Origin: Arthrobacter sp. YN
Lineage (GTDB): Bacteria; Actinomycetota; Actinomycetes; Actinomycetales; Micrococcaceae
Assembly (NCBI RefSeq): GCF_002224285.1
Contig: NZ_CP022436.1
Coordinates: 1,054,001 to 1,118,000, forward strand
Length of the DNA: 64,000 nucleotides
Reading direction: 5' to 3'
Positions 1 to 7,331 of the stretch are shown here, one piece after another. A program made the position numbers and the translations under genes. Under the pieces are notes generated by a model. The model was not told the DNA's origin, did no database searches, and was given only the letters and a program-made list of their open reading frames with translations. How positions within the stretch are numbered: position 1 is the first letter of the stretch; every line of letters starts with the position of its first letter.

Positions 1-750
1 GCCTTCCTGATCAGGGTAGGCCTCCAGCACCAGCGCCGGATCAAAGGGAATTCCGGCGGCATCGAGCGCGTCCTTGTACCCCTGGAGCCGGCCATCCCTG
101 GCAGGTGCGGGGGTGGTGGCGTTGATGAAGGCGATGCGACGGTGGCCACCGCGGAGCAGGATCTCGGTGGCAGACTGTCCACCTTGCGCTTCATCCGGTA
201 CTACGGCCCGCGCGGCCCCGGCGTCGGGGGAGAAACAGTTGACCAGGACGAAGTCCGATTCCCGAAGGGTCTCGGGGATGTCCGTAGGGCGGTGGAACCA
301 GGTGGAGTACAAGATGCCGCGCACTTTGTATTCCAGCATCATGGCGATCGCGTCTTTTTCGAGCTCCTGGTTGCCTTCGGTGTTCGCGATCAGCAGGGCA
401 TAACCATGTTTCCAGGCTTCGTCTTGAGCGCCGTGGATGATTTGGCCGGCGAACGGCGTAGTGGCTACGCCGTCGGCAACCAGTCCAATGAACTTGGAGG
501 TGCCGCTTACCAACGTTTTGGCCATGGCGTTGGGACGGTAACCCAGTTGGGTGATCGCCCGGGTGACGCGTTGGCGGGTTTCGTCGGCGATCCGGGCGTT
601 CTTCTTCTTGTTGATCACCAGGGAGACCGTGGCAGTGGATACTCCGGCCAGTTCAGCCACTTCGCGGAGGGTCACCGGATGGGCACGGCCTGCTCTGACA
701 GGAACGGCGGGGGTGGCCGCGTTGCCTGACTCTCTCTCCTGCGAAATCAT
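1..750 (-). CDS. LacI-family transcriptional regulator (partial, C-terminus outside window)
   Basis: The first 250 residues are visible. A LacI-type N-terminal helix-turn-helix (VTLREVAELAGVSTATVSLV) at about residues 27-46 is followed by the hinge and a periplasmic-binding-protein-like sensor domain. I chose the ATG at 750 because AGGAGG lies 5 bases upstream; an in-frame ATG at 783 has a much weaker ribosome site. It is the last gene of the leftward GH32-transporter operon, 38 bases after the second permease. It is the obvious candidate repressor for the three operator-like sites at 5453-5559. The inducer is unknown; a fructose oligomer or difructose dianhydride is my inference. Confidence 0.93.
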   Translation of the reverse strand, partial: MISQERESGNAATPAVPVRAGRAHPVTLREVAELAGVSTATVSLVINKKKNARIADETRQRVTRAITQLGYRPNAMAKTLVSGTSKFIGLVADGVATTPFAGQIIHGAQDEAWKHGYALLIANTEGNQELEKDAIAMMLEYKVRGILYSTWFHRPTDIPETLRESDFVLVNCFSPDAGAARAVVPDEAQGGQSATEILLRGGHRRIAFINATTPAPARDGRLQGYKDALDAAGIPFDPALVLEAYPDQEG

Positions 751-788
751 CTGTCCTCCTTCAGGAGTATAACCGTCGGCCATAGCGC

Positions 789-1691
789 TCATCCCTTGTT
801 CGCTCCGCTCTCAAGGCCTTGGATCATGGCCTTGTTGAGGACCAGGAATACCAGCAGCAGCGGTGTGATGGTCACGCAGACGGCGGCGAAGGTGGCCGTC
901 CAGTCGACCTTGCCCATAGCGCCGATGTAGTTCTGCAAGCCCAGGGGAATGGTCTTGAGGTCCTCGGAGAGAACAAAGGTGTTGGCGAAGATGAAGTCGT
1001 TCCAGATGAAGATGCTGTTGACCAGCACCACGGTGACCACGGTGTTGAGGGAGAGGGGCAGCGTGATCAGCCCGAAAATCCGGTATGGTCCGGCCCCATC
1101 CAGGGATGCTGCCTCATAGGTTTCGCGCGGTATGTATTCGAAGAAGGACGAGAAAAGGTAGATGGACATCGGGAGGGCGAAGCCTGCCAGGGGGATGATC
1201 ATCGACTGGTAGGTGTCCAGCAGGTTCACCGCGGAGTAGTCGATGAACAGGGGGACCAGCGCGATTTGGACGGGAACGATGATGCCGACGAGGAACAAGC
1301 CCCGGACGAACTTGCTGAGGCGGAAGCCAAGGACCTGGATGGCGTAGGCGGCCATCATGCCGAACAAGACAATCAAAATGTTGGCGCCCATGGTGACGAT
1401 GAAACTGTTCAGGATGTTCCGTCCCAGGTCGCCGGTTTCAAAGGCGCGGGCATAGTTTTCCCACGTCAACGAGCTGGGGAGTCCGAACGGATCACCGGTG
1501 GCAAAGTCGTGTTCGGTCCGCAGGCTGGTGACGAACAGCCAGGCGAGCGGGTACACCTGGACGATCACGATGAGCATGATCAGGACCCTCGAGAGCGTCC
1601 GGTACAAGCTGGGCTTCCGACGCCGGCGCTGGGGGGCGGGAGAAGGAACCCGGGCGCGGGTCGGCTGAGCCGGGGCTGTCTGGGTGATCAT
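789..1691 (-). CDS. Carbohydrate ABC transporter permease (MalG type)
   Basis: This is a 300-residue inner-membrane permease of the CUT1 sugar importer class. About six hydrophobic segments are visible, and the cytoplasmic EAA loop reads EAASLDGAGPYRIFGLITLP near the C-terminal third. I start at MITQTAP (1691) rather than an ATG farther upstream, because this start overlaps the stop of the preceding permease by four bases (ATGA), the usual sign of translational coupling. It works with the permease at 1688-2569 and the binding lipoprotein at 2616-3953. No ATP-binding subunit is encoded nearby, so a shared MsmX-like ATPase elsewhere is likely. Confidence 0.95.
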   Translation of the reverse strand: MITQTAPAQPTRARVPSPAPQRRRRKPSLYRTLSRVLIMLIVIVQVYPLAWLFVTSLRTEHDFATGDPFGLPSSLTWENYARAFETGDLGRNILNSFIVTMGANILIVLFGMMAAYAIQVLGFRLSKFVRGLFLVGIIVPVQIALVPLFIDYSAVNLLDTYQSMIIPLAGFALPMSIYLFSSFFEYIPRETYEAASLDGAGPYRIFGLITLPLSLNTVVTVVLVNSIFIWNDFIFANTFVLSEDLKTIPLGLQNYIGAMGKVDWTATFAAVCVTITPLLLVFLVLNKAMIQGLESGANKG

Positions 1692-2569
1692 GAATCTGCC
1701 TTCCGCTTGAGCATGAACAAGATGAGGCCGACGGCGACGAGGCACTCGATCACGATGAAGACGGCGATGGTACTTGCGTAGCCAAAATCCGTGCTGGTGA
1801 AGGCTGTCTTGTACATATAGGTGGTGAGGAGCTCGGAGGATTGTCCCGGGCCGCCGTTGGTCATGAGATACGGGATATCAAAACCGCGCAGGCCGTAGGT
1901 GGTGGCCATGATGGTGGTGGTAATCCACACGGGCCGGATGTAGGGGAAACGTATCTTGGTGAAGAGCGTCCACTTCGATGCGCCGTCCAGGACCGCGGCT
2001 TCTTCGAGTTCCTTGGGCACAGCGATCAGGGCCGCGTAAATGATGAGCATGTACAGCCCGGTGAACCGCCATCCTTCAGGGGCGGAGACCGCGGCCAGCA
2101 CTGTGTTGACGTCGGACAACCAGGCCCGCTCCAGGGAACCGAGTCCTATCCAGTGCAGCAGCTGGTTCAACAGGCCGACAGGATCAATGGAGTAGATACG
2201 GACAAAAAGGAACGCAATGGCGACCGTGGAGATCACTGCGGGCAGCAAATACAGGGTCTTGATCAGTTCACGTCCCCTGCGCAGGGACGTGAGCAGGCTG
2301 GCGACAACCAGGGCGCCGCCCAGTTGCAGGACCAGGCAGATGGCCAGGTAGACCAGGGCGTTGAAGAATGAACGCCAGAAGATGTCATCAGCCGTGAGCA
2401 TTCGGACGTAATTGGCCAGCCCGACGAACTCCATGTCACTGATGCCGTTCCAGGAGAAGAAGCTCAGGAACAGGGACTGAAGTATGGGGAAGAGGACTGC
2501 TGCGCAGTAGAGCAGCAGGGGTGGGAGCAGGAAAACCAGGACTGAGGTTCTTGACCTGTTGGGAAGCAT
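1688..2569 (-). CDS. Sugar ABC transporter permease (MalF type)
   Basis: This 293-residue permease has about six membrane segments and the CUT1 EAA loop (EEAAVLDGASKWTLFTKIRF). The N-terminal part has the typical pattern of one transmembrane helix followed by a periplasmic loop (SFFSWNGISDMEFVGLANYV). It forms a heterodimer with the downstream permease, with which it shares a four-base stop-start overlap. It follows the solute-binding protein after a 46-base gap holding a strong hairpin. The substrate is inferred from the operon to be a fructan breakdown product. Confidence 0.95.
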   Translation of the reverse strand: MLPNRSRTSVLVFLLPPLLLYCAAVLFPILQSLFLSFFSWNGISDMEFVGLANYVRMLTADDIFWRSFFNALVYLAICLVLQLGGALVVASLLTSLRRGRELIKTLYLLPAVISTVAIAFLFVRIYSIDPVGLLNQLLHWIGLGSLERAWLSDVNTVLAAVSAPEGWRFTGLYMLIIYAALIAVPKELEEAAVLDGASKWTLFTKIRFPYIRPVWITTTIMATTYGLRGFDIPYLMTNGGPGQSSELLTTYMYKTAFTSTDFGYASTIAVFIVIECLVAVGLILFMLKRKADS

Positions 2570-2582
2570 GGTGGGCCTTTCG

Positions 2583-2607
2583 GGCGGGGGCCTTACCGGC
2601 CCCCGCC
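2583..2607 (-). terminator. Intercistronic hairpin between binding protein and permeases
   Basis: GGCGGGGGCC, a five-base loop and GGCCCCCGCC form a perfect 10-bp GC stem just after the stop codon of the solute-binding lipoprotein and before the first permease. There is no long T run. The position fits an mRNA stabiliser or partial terminator that keeps binding protein more abundant than permease. Confidence 0.6.
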
Positions 2608-2615
2608 GTTTCGGT

Positions 2616-3953
2616 TTACTTGAAGAACTTGGGTGCGTTCTGCTTGATGGCGTCGTCCATGGTCTTGGTGAACTGTTCGGGCGTGATGTTGCCCTGGACC
2701 AGGAGGACCAGCTCTTGCTGCAGTCGGCCGTTGGTGGTGGGGTCCAGCTGGGTGTCCCACGGCATCGCCTGCTTTTCCCCGAGGGTGTTGGCCGTTTCGA
2801 GGGCCTTCTTGTACAGCGGCGTAGCGTTCGCGGGGACGGTGGTCTCCACGGTCGTGGTGGGGGAGAGCGCCCCGGTGGCAGCGTACTCAGCCGGGTACTT
2901 CTCCAAGGCGAACTTCAGGAAGTCGCTGACCAGGGGATCGTACGTTTTCGAGTTCACTGCCATGCCGATGCCGGAGGGGGAAACGAACTCATTGGCCGCC
3001 GTCACCGAACCCGGTGTTGTGGGAAGGGTAAAGAAGTCGATGTCGTCCCGGACGTCAGGGTTGAGTTTGTCGGTGGCGAGGCTGGGAAGTTCCCACGTGC
3101 CGATGTTGTACATCGCGGCTTCGCCGGAAGTGAACTGGTTCTGCGCGTCTGAGTAGCCCTGCGCGGAGAAGCCCTCCTGGAAGCACTTGGCCTTGCCGAG
3201 TTCTGCCATCCATTGAACGGTCTTCTGACCCGCGGGATCGCTGAACGCAGCTTCGCCCTTCTTCAGTTTCTGGACGAAGTCCGGTCCGGCAGCCCGGAAC
3301 GGCTGGTACGCGACATAGCGTTCCAGCGGCCACTGGTCCTGCCCGTCGATGGCTATCGGCGTGATTCCTGCGTTGCGCAGGGCCGTGCACATCGCTGGGA
3401 TGTCGTCCAAGGACTGAGGGACAGCCACGCCCGCTTTTTGGAGCAGGGCCTTGTTGTACCAGATGAATTCCAGCTCGAACTGGAACGGGATCATGTACAG
3501 GGATCCGTCATCGAAGCGCTGGTAGTCCAGGGCTCCGGGCCGGTAGTCGTCGTAGAGATCCAGCGACTTCAGCAGCTTGTCGGCCTCCACCATTTTGCCC
3601 TGCTTGGCCAGCTGCTGCGCGAACGGTGTGGCGTCCGTGTCAAACAGCTCGGGGAGCTTGTTGGCCGCAGCCAGGGTTTCGAGTTTCTGGATGTAGGAGG
3701 GCCGGTCCGGGGTGGTGATGAGGTTCAGTGCAAACCCTGGGTGGTCCTTGGCGTAGTCGTCGGCGAGCTTCTTCATGATGTTGATGACGGCGCCATCGGC
3801 AGGCCTGGAGAGGAGCCACGAGATTTCGCGGGGCTTGATCTCTCCGGTGGGGCTGACGTTGGAGGGGTCTGTAGCAGCTCCTCCGCCGCCACAGGCTGTC
3901 AAGGCCAAAGCGGCGACGGCTGCGACGGCGGCAGCACGGAGTAGTTTCTTCAT
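2616..3953 (-). CDS. Extracellular sugar-binding lipoprotein (ABC transporter)
   Basis: A 445-residue family 1 solute-binding protein. The N-terminus is a lipoprotein signal (MKKLLRAAAVAAVAALALTAC, lipobox LTAC) with Cys21 as the lipidated residue, followed by a glycine-rich linker. The mature part has the alternating alpha/beta pattern of CUT1 binding proteins, with aromatic residues (WPLERYVAYQPF, FELEFIWYNK) likely to stack on sugar rings. It lies 44 bases after the GH32 gene and before the two permeases, so it should capture the sugar handled by that enzyme. The ligand cannot be read from sequence; a difructose anhydride or short levan oligomer is inferred. Confidence 0.94.
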   Translation of the reverse strand: MKKLLRAAAVAAVAALALTACGGGGAATDPSNVSPTGEIKPREISWLLSRPADGAVINIMKKLADDYAKDHPGFALNLITTPDRPSYIQKLETLAAANKLPELFDTDATPFAQQLAKQGKMVEADKLLKSLDLYDDYRPGALDYQRFDDGSLYMIPFQFELEFIWYNKALLQKAGVAVPQSLDDIPAMCTALRNAGITPIAIDGQDQWPLERYVAYQPFRAAGPDFVQKLKKGEAAFSDPAGQKTVQWMAELGKAKCFQEGFSAQGYSDAQNQFTSGEAAMYNIGTWELPSLATDKLNPDVRDDIDFFTLPTTPGSVTAANEFVSPSGIGMAVNSKTYDPLVSDFLKFALEKYPAEYAATGALSPTTTVETTVPANATPLYKKALETANTLGEKQAMPWDTQLDPTTNGRLQQELVLLVQGNITPEQFTKTMDDAIKQNAPKFFK

Positions 3954-3997
3954 TGCGGCAATCTCCCTTGATTGGAACAGAGGTTGGGGTGGGTTAT

Positions 3998-5434
3998 TCA
4001 GTTCTCGGTGCGCTGTCGTATCTCAAGTTCGGTGACAGTGACGGTTCCTTCGCCGGCAAAGACGCCGATCCGGCCGGTAGTGAGGTCGTACATCCTGGCG
4101 CTGAGCGCCACTTGACGGTCGACGACGGCGACGCAAGTGTCGCCGTCGACGATGACCTCAAGCGTGTGCACGCCGGGGGTGAGGTCGCAGGGCCGCTCAA
4201 GTTCGACGTCGAACGGGACATCACCTGAGACGTGCCACTGCGCATCGCCGGTGATGGCGCGCGGCCAGCGGTCGAAAACGAGCCGGCCACGCTTGGGTTC
4301 CAGACGGAGGACGTAGGAATGGTCGCCGTCGTTGCTTGAGCGGAGCAGCAAGCCGCACTCGGTGGTGTTCGGGGCGATATCCAGCACCACCTTGGCGTAA
4401 AACTGCTGCGGCAACTCCTCGTCGGACACCTTTGCCGTGTATCCGTCCGGCACATCGAGCCGGGTAGGCAACGCACTGGTCAGGGACGCCGGGACGTCAT
4501 CCCAGAAGCTCTCTACCAGCTCGTCCGCGAAGGAGAATGCCAAGGTTCCGTCCGGGTTTTGGCGGGCTTCCAGCACGGACATGGTGCCGGCCCACTGCCA
4601 TGGCCCATGATCGGTGTTGCCTTCCTTGGTGGCGATCCAGCCAAAGAAGAACCGGCGACCGTCGCGCTCGGCGGACTTTGAGGCGTAAAAGGCGCGGCCG
4701 TCGATGCTGTCCAGGTCCGGCACAGTCCACGGACCGTCGGGGCTTTTGGCCATGCGGTAGCGGGTGGTGAACGATTCCGAGAACTCGGAGTACACCATGT
4801 ACCACCAGTCACCCCAGGCGAAGACATCCGGGCATTCGTGGGTGATGTACCGGCGTGGGTCCCAGAACGGATCGGTGTAATGCCAGGTCATCAGGTCAGT
4901 GGACACGCACTGGGCTATCACGCCGCGGCGGCGTTCCGGACCGGTGGAGTGCCGGGCGGCCAACAGCATCCTCCACTGCTTCTTGCTGTCATCCCACAAC
5001 ACGAAGGGATCACGCCAGTCCCCGGACTCGTAGCCGTCCGGAGCGCCGAAAGTCAGTTCCGGATGCTTTTGCCAGGTCCGCATGCCATCGGTGCTGGTGG
5101 CGTGCATGACCAACTGGAGGGGCGCGCCGTCGGCCCCGACGTTCCGGGGGTTTTGGCCGGTGTAGAAGAGGTGGTGGACGCCGGACCCGTCCGCCACGAC
5201 GCTGCCGGTGTAGGCGTTGAAGTCGAGGTCGGTCTCGCTGCCATGGTGCAGGGAGACGCCATGGTTCTCAAATTGCGTGAGGTCCTTGGTGGTGACCAGG
5301 TTCCATGACGTGCCGGGTTTTGGGTCCGAGCGGTCTTCGTGGAGGTAGAAGAGCCAGAACTCCCCGTCCTTCTCGTAGGGGATAAGGTCCCCAACCCATC
5401 CGTCGGCGGGTTGGAAGAAGACTGGGTGTTTCAT
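3998..5434 (-). CDS. Intracellular GH32 glycoside hydrolase with atypical nucleophile motif
   Basis: This 478-residue protein has no signal peptide. GH32 landmarks are present in order: an N-terminal blade motif GWVGDLIPY with Asp16 as expected nucleophile, WRDPF with Asp142 as transition-state stabiliser, and HECPDVF with Glu200 as acid/base. The C-terminal 130 residues look like the beta-sandwich of GH32. The usual WMNDPNG signature is replaced, which separates it from ordinary invertases and levanases. It is the first gene of the operon, diverging from levan fructotransferase. The likely role is cytoplasmic cleavage of the imported fructose dimer; difructose dianhydride IV hydrolysis is my hypothesis. 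Other fructosidase activity is equally possible from sequence alone. Confidence 0.88.
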   Translation of the reverse strand: MKHPVFFQPADGWVGDLIPYEKDGEFWLFYLHEDRSDPKPGTSWNLVTTKDLTQFENHGVSLHHGSETDLDFNAYTGSVVADGSGVHHLFYTGQNPRNVGADGAPLQLVMHATSTDGMRTWQKHPELTFGAPDGYESGDWRDPFVLWDDSKKQWRMLLAARHSTGPERRRGVIAQCVSTDLMTWHYTDPFWDPRRYITHECPDVFAWGDWWYMVYSEFSESFTTRYRMAKSPDGPWTVPDLDSIDGRAFYASKSAERDGRRFFFGWIATKEGNTDHGPWQWAGTMSVLEARQNPDGTLAFSFADELVESFWDDVPASLTSALPTRLDVPDGYTAKVSDEELPQQFYAKVVLDIAPNTTECGLLLRSSNDGDHSYVLRLEPKRGRLVFDRWPRAITGDAQWHVSGDVPFDVELERPCDLTPGVHTLEVIVDGDTCVAVVDRQVALSARMYDLTTGRIGVFAGEGTVTVTELEIRQRTEN

Positions 5435-5452
5435 CTGCGCTGATGTCCGTTC

Positions 5453-5470
5453 TGCTAAAGCGTTTGATCA
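5453..5470. promoter_or_regulatory. LacI-type operator 1
   Basis: TGCTAAAGCGTTTGATCA is an imperfect palindrome with a central CG, the usual layout of LacI-family sites. It lies 19 bases upstream of the GH32 start and matches the two neighbouring sites at 14 or more positions in one orientation or the other. Confidence 0.75.
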
Positions 5471-5497
5471 CTCGTAAGTTAGCGTGAATCGTCACGC

Positions 5498-5515
5498 CGA
5501 TCAAGCGTTTTAGCA
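5498..5515. promoter_or_regulatory. LacI-type operator 2
   Basis: CGATCAAGCGTTTTAGCA is the same motif in the opposite orientation. Its centre is 45 bp from that of operator 1, about four helical turns. Confidence 0.75.
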
Positions 5516-5541
5516 AATTTTATTTTCCGCCAAAATTGTGG

Positions 5542-5559
5542 TGCTAAAACGCTTGACCG
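5542..5559. promoter_or_regulatory. LacI-type operator 3
   Basis: TGCTAAAACGCTTGACCG repeats the motif 44 bp from operator 2. The rest of the 337-base divergent gap (5435-5771) holds no gene I can support; the stretch 5560-5771 should contain the lftA promoter and leader. Confidence 0.72.
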
Positions 5560-5771
5560 CAGAAACGTCCGCCGCTAATGTCCTGCGTAGCCGATGACTC
5601 ACCGGGCCGCTCGATGCTGAGCCGTCCGAACCCGGCCGTGAGTACCGATCCAGCTCTCCAACTGACGTGCAGTACCAGGCTGCCCGGGACCTTTCCCGAC
5701 GGCCCCGCACGTTCATCACCATGACGTTTGGCAGGCCGTCGCGCCCGCCAAGCACTGAGAGGAACACATCA

Positions 5772-7331
5772 ATGACGTATGACATCTCTCGCCGCACTGC
5801 CCTGCAAGGTGCAGGAGTTGGTGCCTTGGCACTGTTCATGAGCAGCGCCATCCCCGTGGCCGCCCACGCCCAGACATCCCTCCGGGCGATTTACCACATG
5901 ACGCCGCCCTCGGGCTGGCTGTGTGATCCGCAGCGTCCCGTTCATACCAACGGCGCCTACCAGCTCTACTACCTTCACTCCGGCCAGAACAACGGACCGG
6001 GCGGATGGGACCATGCGACCACCTCCGACGGAGTGTCGTACACCCACCATGGAGTGGTGATGCCACTGCAGACGGACTTCCCCGTGTGGTCGGGATCGGC
6101 CGTAGTGGACACCGCCAACACTGCCGGCTTCGGTGCCGGCGCTGTGATCGCACTCGCCACCCAACCCACGGATGGCATCCGGAAATTCCAGGAACAGTAC
6201 CTGTACTGGTCCACGGATGGCGGCTACACCTTTACCGCATTGCCTGAGGCGGTCATTGTGAACACTGACGGACGGACGGCCGCCACCCCCGCCGAGGTGG
6301 AGAACGCAGAATGGTTCCGCGATCCCAAGATTCACTGGGACGCGACGCGTAACGAGTGGGTCTGTGTCATCGGCAGGGCCCGCTACGCTGCCTTCTACAC
6401 CTCTCCCAACCTGCGCGATTGGCAATGGAAGTCCAACTTCGACTTCCCCAACCATGCCCTCGGCGGCATCGAATGCCCGGATCTGTTCGAGATGACCGCC
6501 GGGGACGGCACCCGGCATTGGGTGTTCGGCGCGAGCATGGACGCCTACAGCATTGGCCTGCCCATGACCTTTGCCTACTGGACAGGTTCATGGAACGGCA
6601 CAGCGTTCATCGCGGACAACCTTACACCGCAGTGGCTTGACTGGGGATGGGACTGGTACGCCGCCGTGACTTGGCCGGCCGTGGAAGCACCGGAGACGAA
6701 GCGCCTTGCCACCGCGTGGATGAACAACTGGAAATACGCGGCCCGCGACGTGCCCACGGACGTGTCCGATGGTTACAACGGACAGAATTCCATCACGCGC
6801 GAGCTCAGGCTTGAGCGCCAATCGGGCGGCTGGTACACCTTGCTCAGCACGCCCGTTCCGGCGCTTTCGAACTATGTCACGTCCAGCACCACCCTTCCGG
6901 ACCGCACCGTCAACGGCAGTTTCGTACTGCCGTGGAGCGGGCGGGCGTATGAGCTGGAGCTCGATATCTCTTGGGACACCGCCGCGAACGTTGGAGTGTC
7001 GGTGGGCCGCTCGTCGAATGGCAGCCGCCATACGAACATCGGCAAATACGGCGACGAGCTGTACGTCGATCGCGCACCCTCGGACCAAAGCGGCTATGCG
7101 CTGGCCCCTTACACCCGCGCCGCCGCTCCTATCGACGCCAACGCCAGATCCGTCCACCTTCGCATTTTTGTCGACACCCAAAGTGTTGAGGTGTTTGTGA
7201 ATTCCGGGCACTCGGTGGTTTCGCAGCAGGTGCACTTCGCGGACGGGGACACGGGGATCTCCCTCTATGCTGACGGTGGTCCGGCAAACTTCACCGGAAT
7301 CACCATCCGCGAGTTCGGGAACCCCATCTAA
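5772..7331 (+). CDS. lftA: Levan fructotransferase (DFA IV-forming), Tat-exported GH32
   Basis: The 519-residue product closely matches, from memory, the Arthrobacter levan fructotransferase that converts levan into di-D-fructose 2,6':6,2' dianhydride (DFA IV). A twin-arginine signal (SRRTAL, then a hydrophobic stretch ending AHA) covers residues 1-33. Catalytic motifs are GWLCDPQRP (Asp52, nucleophile), WFRDPK (Asp184) and GIECPDLF (Glu234, acid/base), followed by a C-terminal beta-sandwich. I chose the ATG at 5772 because it begins the Tat signal and follows GAGAGGAA. It diverges from the uptake operon across three shared LacI-type sites. A hairpin terminator follows at 7351-7400. Confidence 0.92.
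   Translation: MTYDISRRTALQGAGVGALALFMSSAIPVAAHAQTSLRAIYHMTPPSGWLCDPQRPVHTNGAYQLYYLHSGQNNGPGGWDHATTSDGVSYTHHGVVMPLQTDFPVWSGSAVVDTANTAGFGAGAVIALATQPTDGIRKFQEQYLYWSTDGGYTFTALPEAVIVNTDGRTAATPAEVENAEWFRDPKIHWDATRNEWVCVIGRARYAAFYTSPNLRDWQWKSNFDFPNHALGGIECPDLFEMTAGDGTRHWVFGASMDAYSIGLPMTFAYWTGSWNGTAFIADNLTPQWLDWGWDWYAAVTWPAVEAPETKRLATAWMNNWKYAARDVPTDVSDGYNGQNSITRELRLERQSGGWYTLLSTPVPALSNYVTSSTTLPDRTVNGSFVLPWSGRAYELELDISWDTAANVGVSVGRSSNGSRHTNIGKYGDELYVDRAPSDQSGYALAPYTRAAAPIDANARSVHLRIFVDTQSVEVFVNSGHSVVSQQVHFADGDTGISLYADGGPANFTGITIREFGNPI

Follow-up and report, generated by a model that had tools for sequence, protein, structure and literature searches.

A candidate route for levan use through the cyclic dimer DFA IV in Arthrobacter and its relatives

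Introduction

How might a bacterium that turns levan into the cyclic fructose dimer difructose anhydride IV (DFA IV) go on to use that dimer? The question is raised by the left end of the window, by which we mean the whole 64,000-bp stretch of Arthrobacter sp. YN that was analysed (G000:C1:1054001-1118000, in a genome of 5,063,552 bp, or 5.06 Mb). Here the gene for an exported levan fructotransferase (LFT) lies on the plus strand, divergent from a minus-strand block that encodes, in order, a signal-less GH32 enzyme (GH32c), a binding lipoprotein, two permeases and a LacI-family regulator. We propose, with a probability of roughly 0.74, that these genes specify a three-stage levan pathway through DFA IV, in which the dimer would be formed outside the cell, imported, and opened by GH32c.

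Enzymatic production of DFA IV goes back a long way, and the dimer has been fed to animals (PMC5959885). In searches of an open-access library we found no account of its uptake, hydrolysis or use by the bacteria that make it, and the available parts of PMC6245366, PMC8071392 and PMC8397739 contribute nothing on bacterial use of DFA IV. A route of uptake and opening is known for two related cyclic sugars and has seemingly not been described for this one. With a candidate hydrolase and a candidate receptor now named, DFA IV use can be tested directly, and the gap next to the routes for DFA III and DFA I would be filled.

Results

The gene at 5772-7331 on the plus strand is, by homology, that of an exported LFT, with DFA IV formation from levan as its predicted activity. 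In a phmmer search 480 of its residues aligned to the Arthrobacter ureafaciens enzyme of known crystal structure (4fff/4ffg) with an E value of 2.5e-290, as against 2e-104 for the LevB1 endolevanase (9h8i), and Pfam placed PF00251 and PF08244 on it. The open frame runs from 5667; the ATG at 5772, with the purine-rich ribosome site GAGAGGA, is the likelier start, and the product then opens with a Tat-type (twin-arginine) leader, MTYDISRRTALQ (both features recognised by eye). Comparison with a LevB-type sister enzyme, introduced below, used 40 of the 58 LFT sequences collected and all 11 of the sister type; eight alignment columns separate the two groups, and none could be tied to the DFA IV site.

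GH32c, at 3998-5434 on the minus strand, carries GH32 N-terminal (PF00251, E 6.8e-31) and C-terminal domains together with a GH43 match below its cut-off, and its structural model has the GH32 fold, with its five-bladed propeller. The invariant residues D16, D142 (in RDP) and E200 (in ECP) correspond to an intact catalytic triad. The closest solved structure to the model is that of the endolevanase BT1760, whose catalytic Asp41, Asp169 and Glu221 align with these three positions. The two enzymes differ in that Gln239 of BT1760, near the -1/+1 subsites, stands opposite the invariant F218, and in that Arg244 falls in an insertion relative to GH32c, both placements being uncertain at about 25% identity; BT1760 also has a signal peptide, whereas none is visible by eye in GH32c. 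GH32c is the candidate DFA IV hydrolase. GH91 was ruled out as its identity by the Pfam domains and the modelled fold, and neither GH91 nor GH172 is available as the opening enzyme of this cluster, since GH32c is a GH32 enzyme and no GH172 domain (DUF2961) was found in the six window proteins scanned with Pfam.

Among 295 genomes of Micrococcaceae, which are related to one another and for which at most five candidates per genome were scored, LFT (at least 55% identity) occurs in 15 and GH32c in 18. All 15 LFT genomes carry GH32c, with 242 to 6023 bp between the two genes, and GH32c stands without LFT in three (G123, G054, G162). A looser search recovered the LevB-type sister enzyme, 41-46% identical to LFT, in 22 genomes of the family, 20 of which have no LFT. 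One member searched against the PDB lies nearest the LevB1 endolevanase (E 1.5e-146, versus 8.5e-102 for LFT), an enzyme whose main product is levanbiose according to the accessible part of PMC9881289. Only one of those 20 genomes (G054) holds GH32c, and the difference recurs within genera: GH32c is present in 6/6 LFT genomes versus 0/5 LevB-type-only genomes in g1, 5/5 versus 0/6 in g23, and 3/3 versus 0/2 in g24. Because GH32c accompanies LFT in 15 of 15 genomes and the LevB-type enzyme alone in one of 20, the cassette within Micrococcaceae tracks the enzyme predicted to form the cyclic dimer, not the type that yields the linear one. In one of the 15 (G236:C5:423145-424593) LFT contains a single in-frame TAG, which may mark a recent loss of LFT next to a retained cassette.

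Screening GTDB genomes for GH32c gave 40 named loci, the nearest GH32c relatives lying in Paenarthrobacter and Arthrobacter. In all 40, GH32c, the binding protein, both permeases and LacI occur in the same order; the exceptions in gene integrity are L084 (Hiyo8), where some genes are in pieces, and L062, where one permease gene is broken. LFT at 55% identity or more is present in 25 of these genomes, broken in one more (L078), and absent at E <= 1e-100 from 14. It lies inside the fetched flanks in 22 of the 25 (all except L081-L083), where it is placed in one of three ways: reading away from GH32c, preceding it with the same orientation (L067, L069), or following LacI (L085). The last also holds for the family loci L088-L090, L096 and L097 and, in other families, for L155-L158, in which the simple open-reading-frame script called some genes poorly.

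The linkage extends to a plasmid. On pTCL of Curtobacterium sp. TC1 (L199), LFT (70%) and GH32c (50%) are paired with a divergent importer, the permeases being 27 and 35% identical to those of the window, LacI 34%, and the binding protein 23% at its best query match; the cluster also holds an ordinary GH32 and a kinase, and tatA and tatC lie beside LFT. Among 72,556 plasmid records pTCL is the sole LFT match of at least 60% and also the best GH32c match.

The two transcripts also appear to share control. Three LacI-type sites lie between them, TAAAGCGTTTGA at 5456-5467 nearest GH32c, TCAAGCGTTTTA at 5501-5512, and TAAAACGCTTGA at 5545-5556 on the LFT side; the first two have counterparts about 33 and 78 bp before GH32c in relatives, and part of them have a third, over 100 bp upstream of GH32c, mostly together with a divergent LFT and in some cases without LFT. 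The exact operator occurs twice in the 5,063,552-bp genome, both times in this intergenic region, and with one mismatch at four other places (a reversed control pattern gave five places at up to one mismatch). All 40 GTDB loci have, within 300 bp upstream of GH32c, at least two TAAAACGCTTGA-like sites (at most two mismatches, as in all counts that follow), usually spaced by about 45 bp: 107 sites in the 12,000 bp upstream of GH32c in these relatives versus 30 in 818,430 bp elsewhere. Six of those 30 are the pairs before LFT in L067, L069 and L085; a pair also precedes LFT in L092, making four loci in which LFT is placed elsewhere yet has its own operator pair. All nine LFT-less loci tested from the order carry at least one site within 100 bp of GH32c, and none was found within that distance in L091. 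The nine distant loci with LFT behind LacI (L088-L090, L096, L097, L155-L158) showed no site closer than 350 bp to the start of LFT, which would be expected if operon transcription covers LFT. Since operators precede both GH32c and LFT, and the exact site is confined to this region of the genome, LacI most likely regulates LFT and the cassette specifically, and would bind at their operators. The original prediction had listed this gene set and its shared operators, and both are borne out here. A scan of positions 5400-5800 for promoter and terminator consensus sequences found none.

A second claim, that the pathway hides its sugar from competitors, has become doubtful. Besides the 14 GTDB genomes in which no LFT was found there is the one with a broken copy, and 12 of these 15 keep all five cassette genes at full length; the incomplete cassettes are those of L062 and L072, each with a short permease, and L084, in pieces. 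Some genomes are drafts, where an absent LFT may be an assembly gap. Ratios of nonsynonymous to synonymous change (dN/dS) for the cassette genes are 0.02 to 0.12 in four pairs drawn from five LFT-less genomes, which indicates purifying selection, and similar (0.03 to 0.12) in one LFT-bearing pair. L052 has an intact cassette and no LFT while its nearest relatives have LFT, and L062 retains an LFT remnant. On a tree of 66 GH32c proteins, built by a quick method, with several long branches and leaving out L084 because of its fragmented genes, LFT presence changes 16 times, at least 11 of them by well supported branches; shuffled labels gave 21.8 changes on average and as few as 16 in 5 of 500 trials. 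LFT is thus somewhat clustered on this tree, where gain and loss are indistinguishable.

The actinobacterial genomes G593 and G630 each have two GH32 matches, GH32c and an ordinary cytoplasmic enzyme, in the same operon and with no visible leaders. Because these are their only GH32 matches, the imported sugar is probably made by others. The 14 LFT-less GTDB genomes, which may instead draw on a levanase of their own, each have 6 to 11 GH32 domain matches, some large genes being counted twice. Uptake and opening look like the core of the system and LFT like an optional module, with receiver-only strains that look common.

The remaining genes of the block complete the parts list. The lipoprotein, at 2616-3953 on the minus strand (PF01547, E 1.6e-27; lipobox LTAC by eye), is a candidate DFA IV receptor; CUT1 permease 1 (MalF/UgpA type, 1688-2569, minus strand, PF00528 E 1.9e-17) and permease 2 (MalG/UgpE type, 789-1745, minus strand, PF00528 E 2.2e-16) follow, so that Pfam accounts for the binding protein and two permeases of a CUT1 importer. 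The LacI-family gene, last in the block at all 40 GTDB loci, is cut by the left edge of the window (1-792, minus strand, 264 codons); the whole gene encodes 373 residues and ends 330 bp to the left (L009 9671-10792). LacI was scanned against NCBIfam only, and NCBIfam gave no model above its cut-off for any of the eight proteins scanned. Actinobacterial CUT1 importers are usually powered by a shared ATPase. The cluster has no ATPase gene, and one OB_MalK-type match above cut-off lies about 34 kb off (G000:C1:1019896), which fits that habit.

In the window's genome, L010 4312-6872 (about 769312-771872) holds an ordinary cytoplasmic GH32 gene with a fructokinase-like gene (at 770229-771872), the latter 47% identical to the L143 kinase, with LacI and permeases adjoining; once the ring is open, this pair may carry out what follows. 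In the three genomes of the order that have LFT and no GH32c, LFT adjoins other CUT1 permeases, 27-33% like those of the window, and a gene for an enzyme of about 304 residues lies near it (for example L153 14991-15902 on the plus strand, and L154 10740-11657). Two of these enzymes examined with Pfam have the GH32 N-terminal propeller domain only. Homologues occur in L152, L085, L151, L131, L110 and L132, those of L151 and L085 lying close to GH32c and that of L132 close to a 47% LFT-like enzyme; the enzyme is possibly a substitute for GH32c, not orthologous to it, that also opens what LFT makes. Distant GH32c relatives (a 31-40% clade, some annotated as family 43) occur with GH172 (DUF2961) in two of the ten order loci fetched and on a conjugative Paenarthrobacter ureafaciens plasmid (L200 1727-11425, L195 6774-9264, L197 2958-9934). 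Thirty-three Escherichia plasmid records match GH32c, those listed carrying a GH32 enzyme about 30% identical, and the Enterococcus gilvus plasmid pCR1A (L201) has a Bacillota version of the operon: LacI, a GH32c-like gene, a binding protein, two permeases, an ordinary GH32, a ROK kinase and UgpC.

Discussion

In the pathway we favour, LFT would be exported and convert levan to DFA IV outside the cell, a reaction known from its close homologue. Import of the dimer would fall to the lipoprotein and the pair of permeases, with energy from a shared ATPase of the MsiK/UgpC type whose gene lies outside the cluster. GH32c, as a retaining GH32 enzyme, would hydrolyse one of the two beta-2,6 bonds and so open the ring to levanbiose, which GH32c itself or an ordinary cytoplasmic beta-fructosidase would split; the fructose would then be phosphorylated. 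In this genome the ordinary GH32 gene and the fructokinase-like gene noted above may serve these steps. LacI, acting at the paired operators, would repress both transcripts, and some strains probably live on dimer made by others.

Several observations weigh against this pathway. Many genomes have GH32c and no LFT, and GH32c lies nearest to a levan endohydrolase. Both would suit a cassette that imports linear levan oligomers, chiefly levanbiose, with GH32c as their hydrolase and DFA IV as a side product or a sugar opened elsewhere, and so would the 45% LevB-type enzyme held by two of the 14 LFT-less GTDB genomes. We consider this unlikely, although it is the strongest of the alternatives: BT1760 does not cut levanbiose, ordinary GH32 enzymes that could do so adjoin GH32c in several operons, GH32c was not found in 19 of the 20 family genomes with a LevB-type enzyme and no LFT, and the product of LFT would, one may argue, be a dead end within its own regulon. 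The link also loosens across the 396 genomes of the order, where, outside the family, four genomes have both genes (separated by about 4.5 kb in each), three have LFT only (one of them a partial match) and ten have GH32c only. These ten, and the association of the distant clade with GH172, to which DFA I synthase/hydrolase belongs, would accord with import of a non-levan fructo-sugar, for instance a caramel sugar resembling DFA I or some plant fructoside, with the nearness of LFT secondary. That account seems quite improbable beside the operators that GH32c and LFT have in common even where LFT lies elsewhere, the linkage throughout the LFT genomes of the family, and the likeness of the GH32c model to a levan enzyme. 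It would be more surprising still if LFT served levan or biofilm turnover while the neighbouring importer took sucrose or fructose under a general fructan response governed by LacI. The genome does contain eight GH32 genes, some near other importers and LacI genes; the exact operator form, however, is peculiar to this intergenic region, and in the pairs examined purifying selection maintains the block where LFT is absent, so that it probably has a substrate of its own.

The original prediction that DFA IV is taken up and then opened intracellularly is therefore strengthened by comparison within the family and on the plasmid, and less closely supported beyond it. The idea of a strictly private sugar fares worse, since the receiver-only strains speak against it; strains that have the cassette without LFT probably import sugar made by others. 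A bolder version would make GH32c the first dedicated DFA IV hydrolase, founding a GH32 subfamily for cyclic difructose, and DFA IV a shared soil currency, made by LFT-bearing strains and also consumed by many receiver-only relatives in which LFT was lost or never present, and which keep importer, operators and hydrolase under selection; this we hold tentatively, at slightly under even odds. Questions about public goods among soil bacteria could be studied here in a natural system of producers and receivers.

The nearest precedents are the routes for DFA III and DFA I, for which Kashima et al. (PMC8605356) set out a three-stage 'monopolizing' scheme for cyclic sugars; the available section on that scheme does not mention DFA IV. 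The DFA III pathway of Arthrobacter and Blautia comprises an inulin fructotransferase, an importer, the GH91 enzyme DFA IIIase (that of A. aurescens is treated in the accessible part of PMC4640833) and a GH32 beta-fructofuranosidase. As proposed here, a cyclic fructose dimer is imported and opened inside, Arthrobacter makes it outside by a fructotransferase (PMC8605356, in part), and the Blautia clusters contain ABC (ATP-binding cassette) transporter and GH32 genes (PMC11538131, in part). The window cluster differs in that its polymer would be levan, both enzymes are GH32, and there is no GH91-like gene; the bonds of its route would be beta-2,6, so a retaining GH32 enzyme could in principle open the ring. 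For DFA I, the available text of PMC8605356 describes in Bifidobacterium dentium a cluster of LacI, importer and cytoplasmic GH32, as here, in a genome that lacks the sugar-making inulin fructotransferase, like our LFT-less relatives. Its opener, in contrast, is a GH172 alpha-fructofuranosidase, which the window cluster lacks and which some distant GH32c relatives adjoin. On the producing side, the window LFT is a close homologue of the A. ureafaciens enzyme (4fff; 4ffg with DFA IV), whereas LevB1 (9h8i), also a related GH32, makes chiefly levanbiose. Taken together, these comparisons suggest that the cassette is probably the DFA IV counterpart of the three-stage pathways known for DFA III and DFA I.

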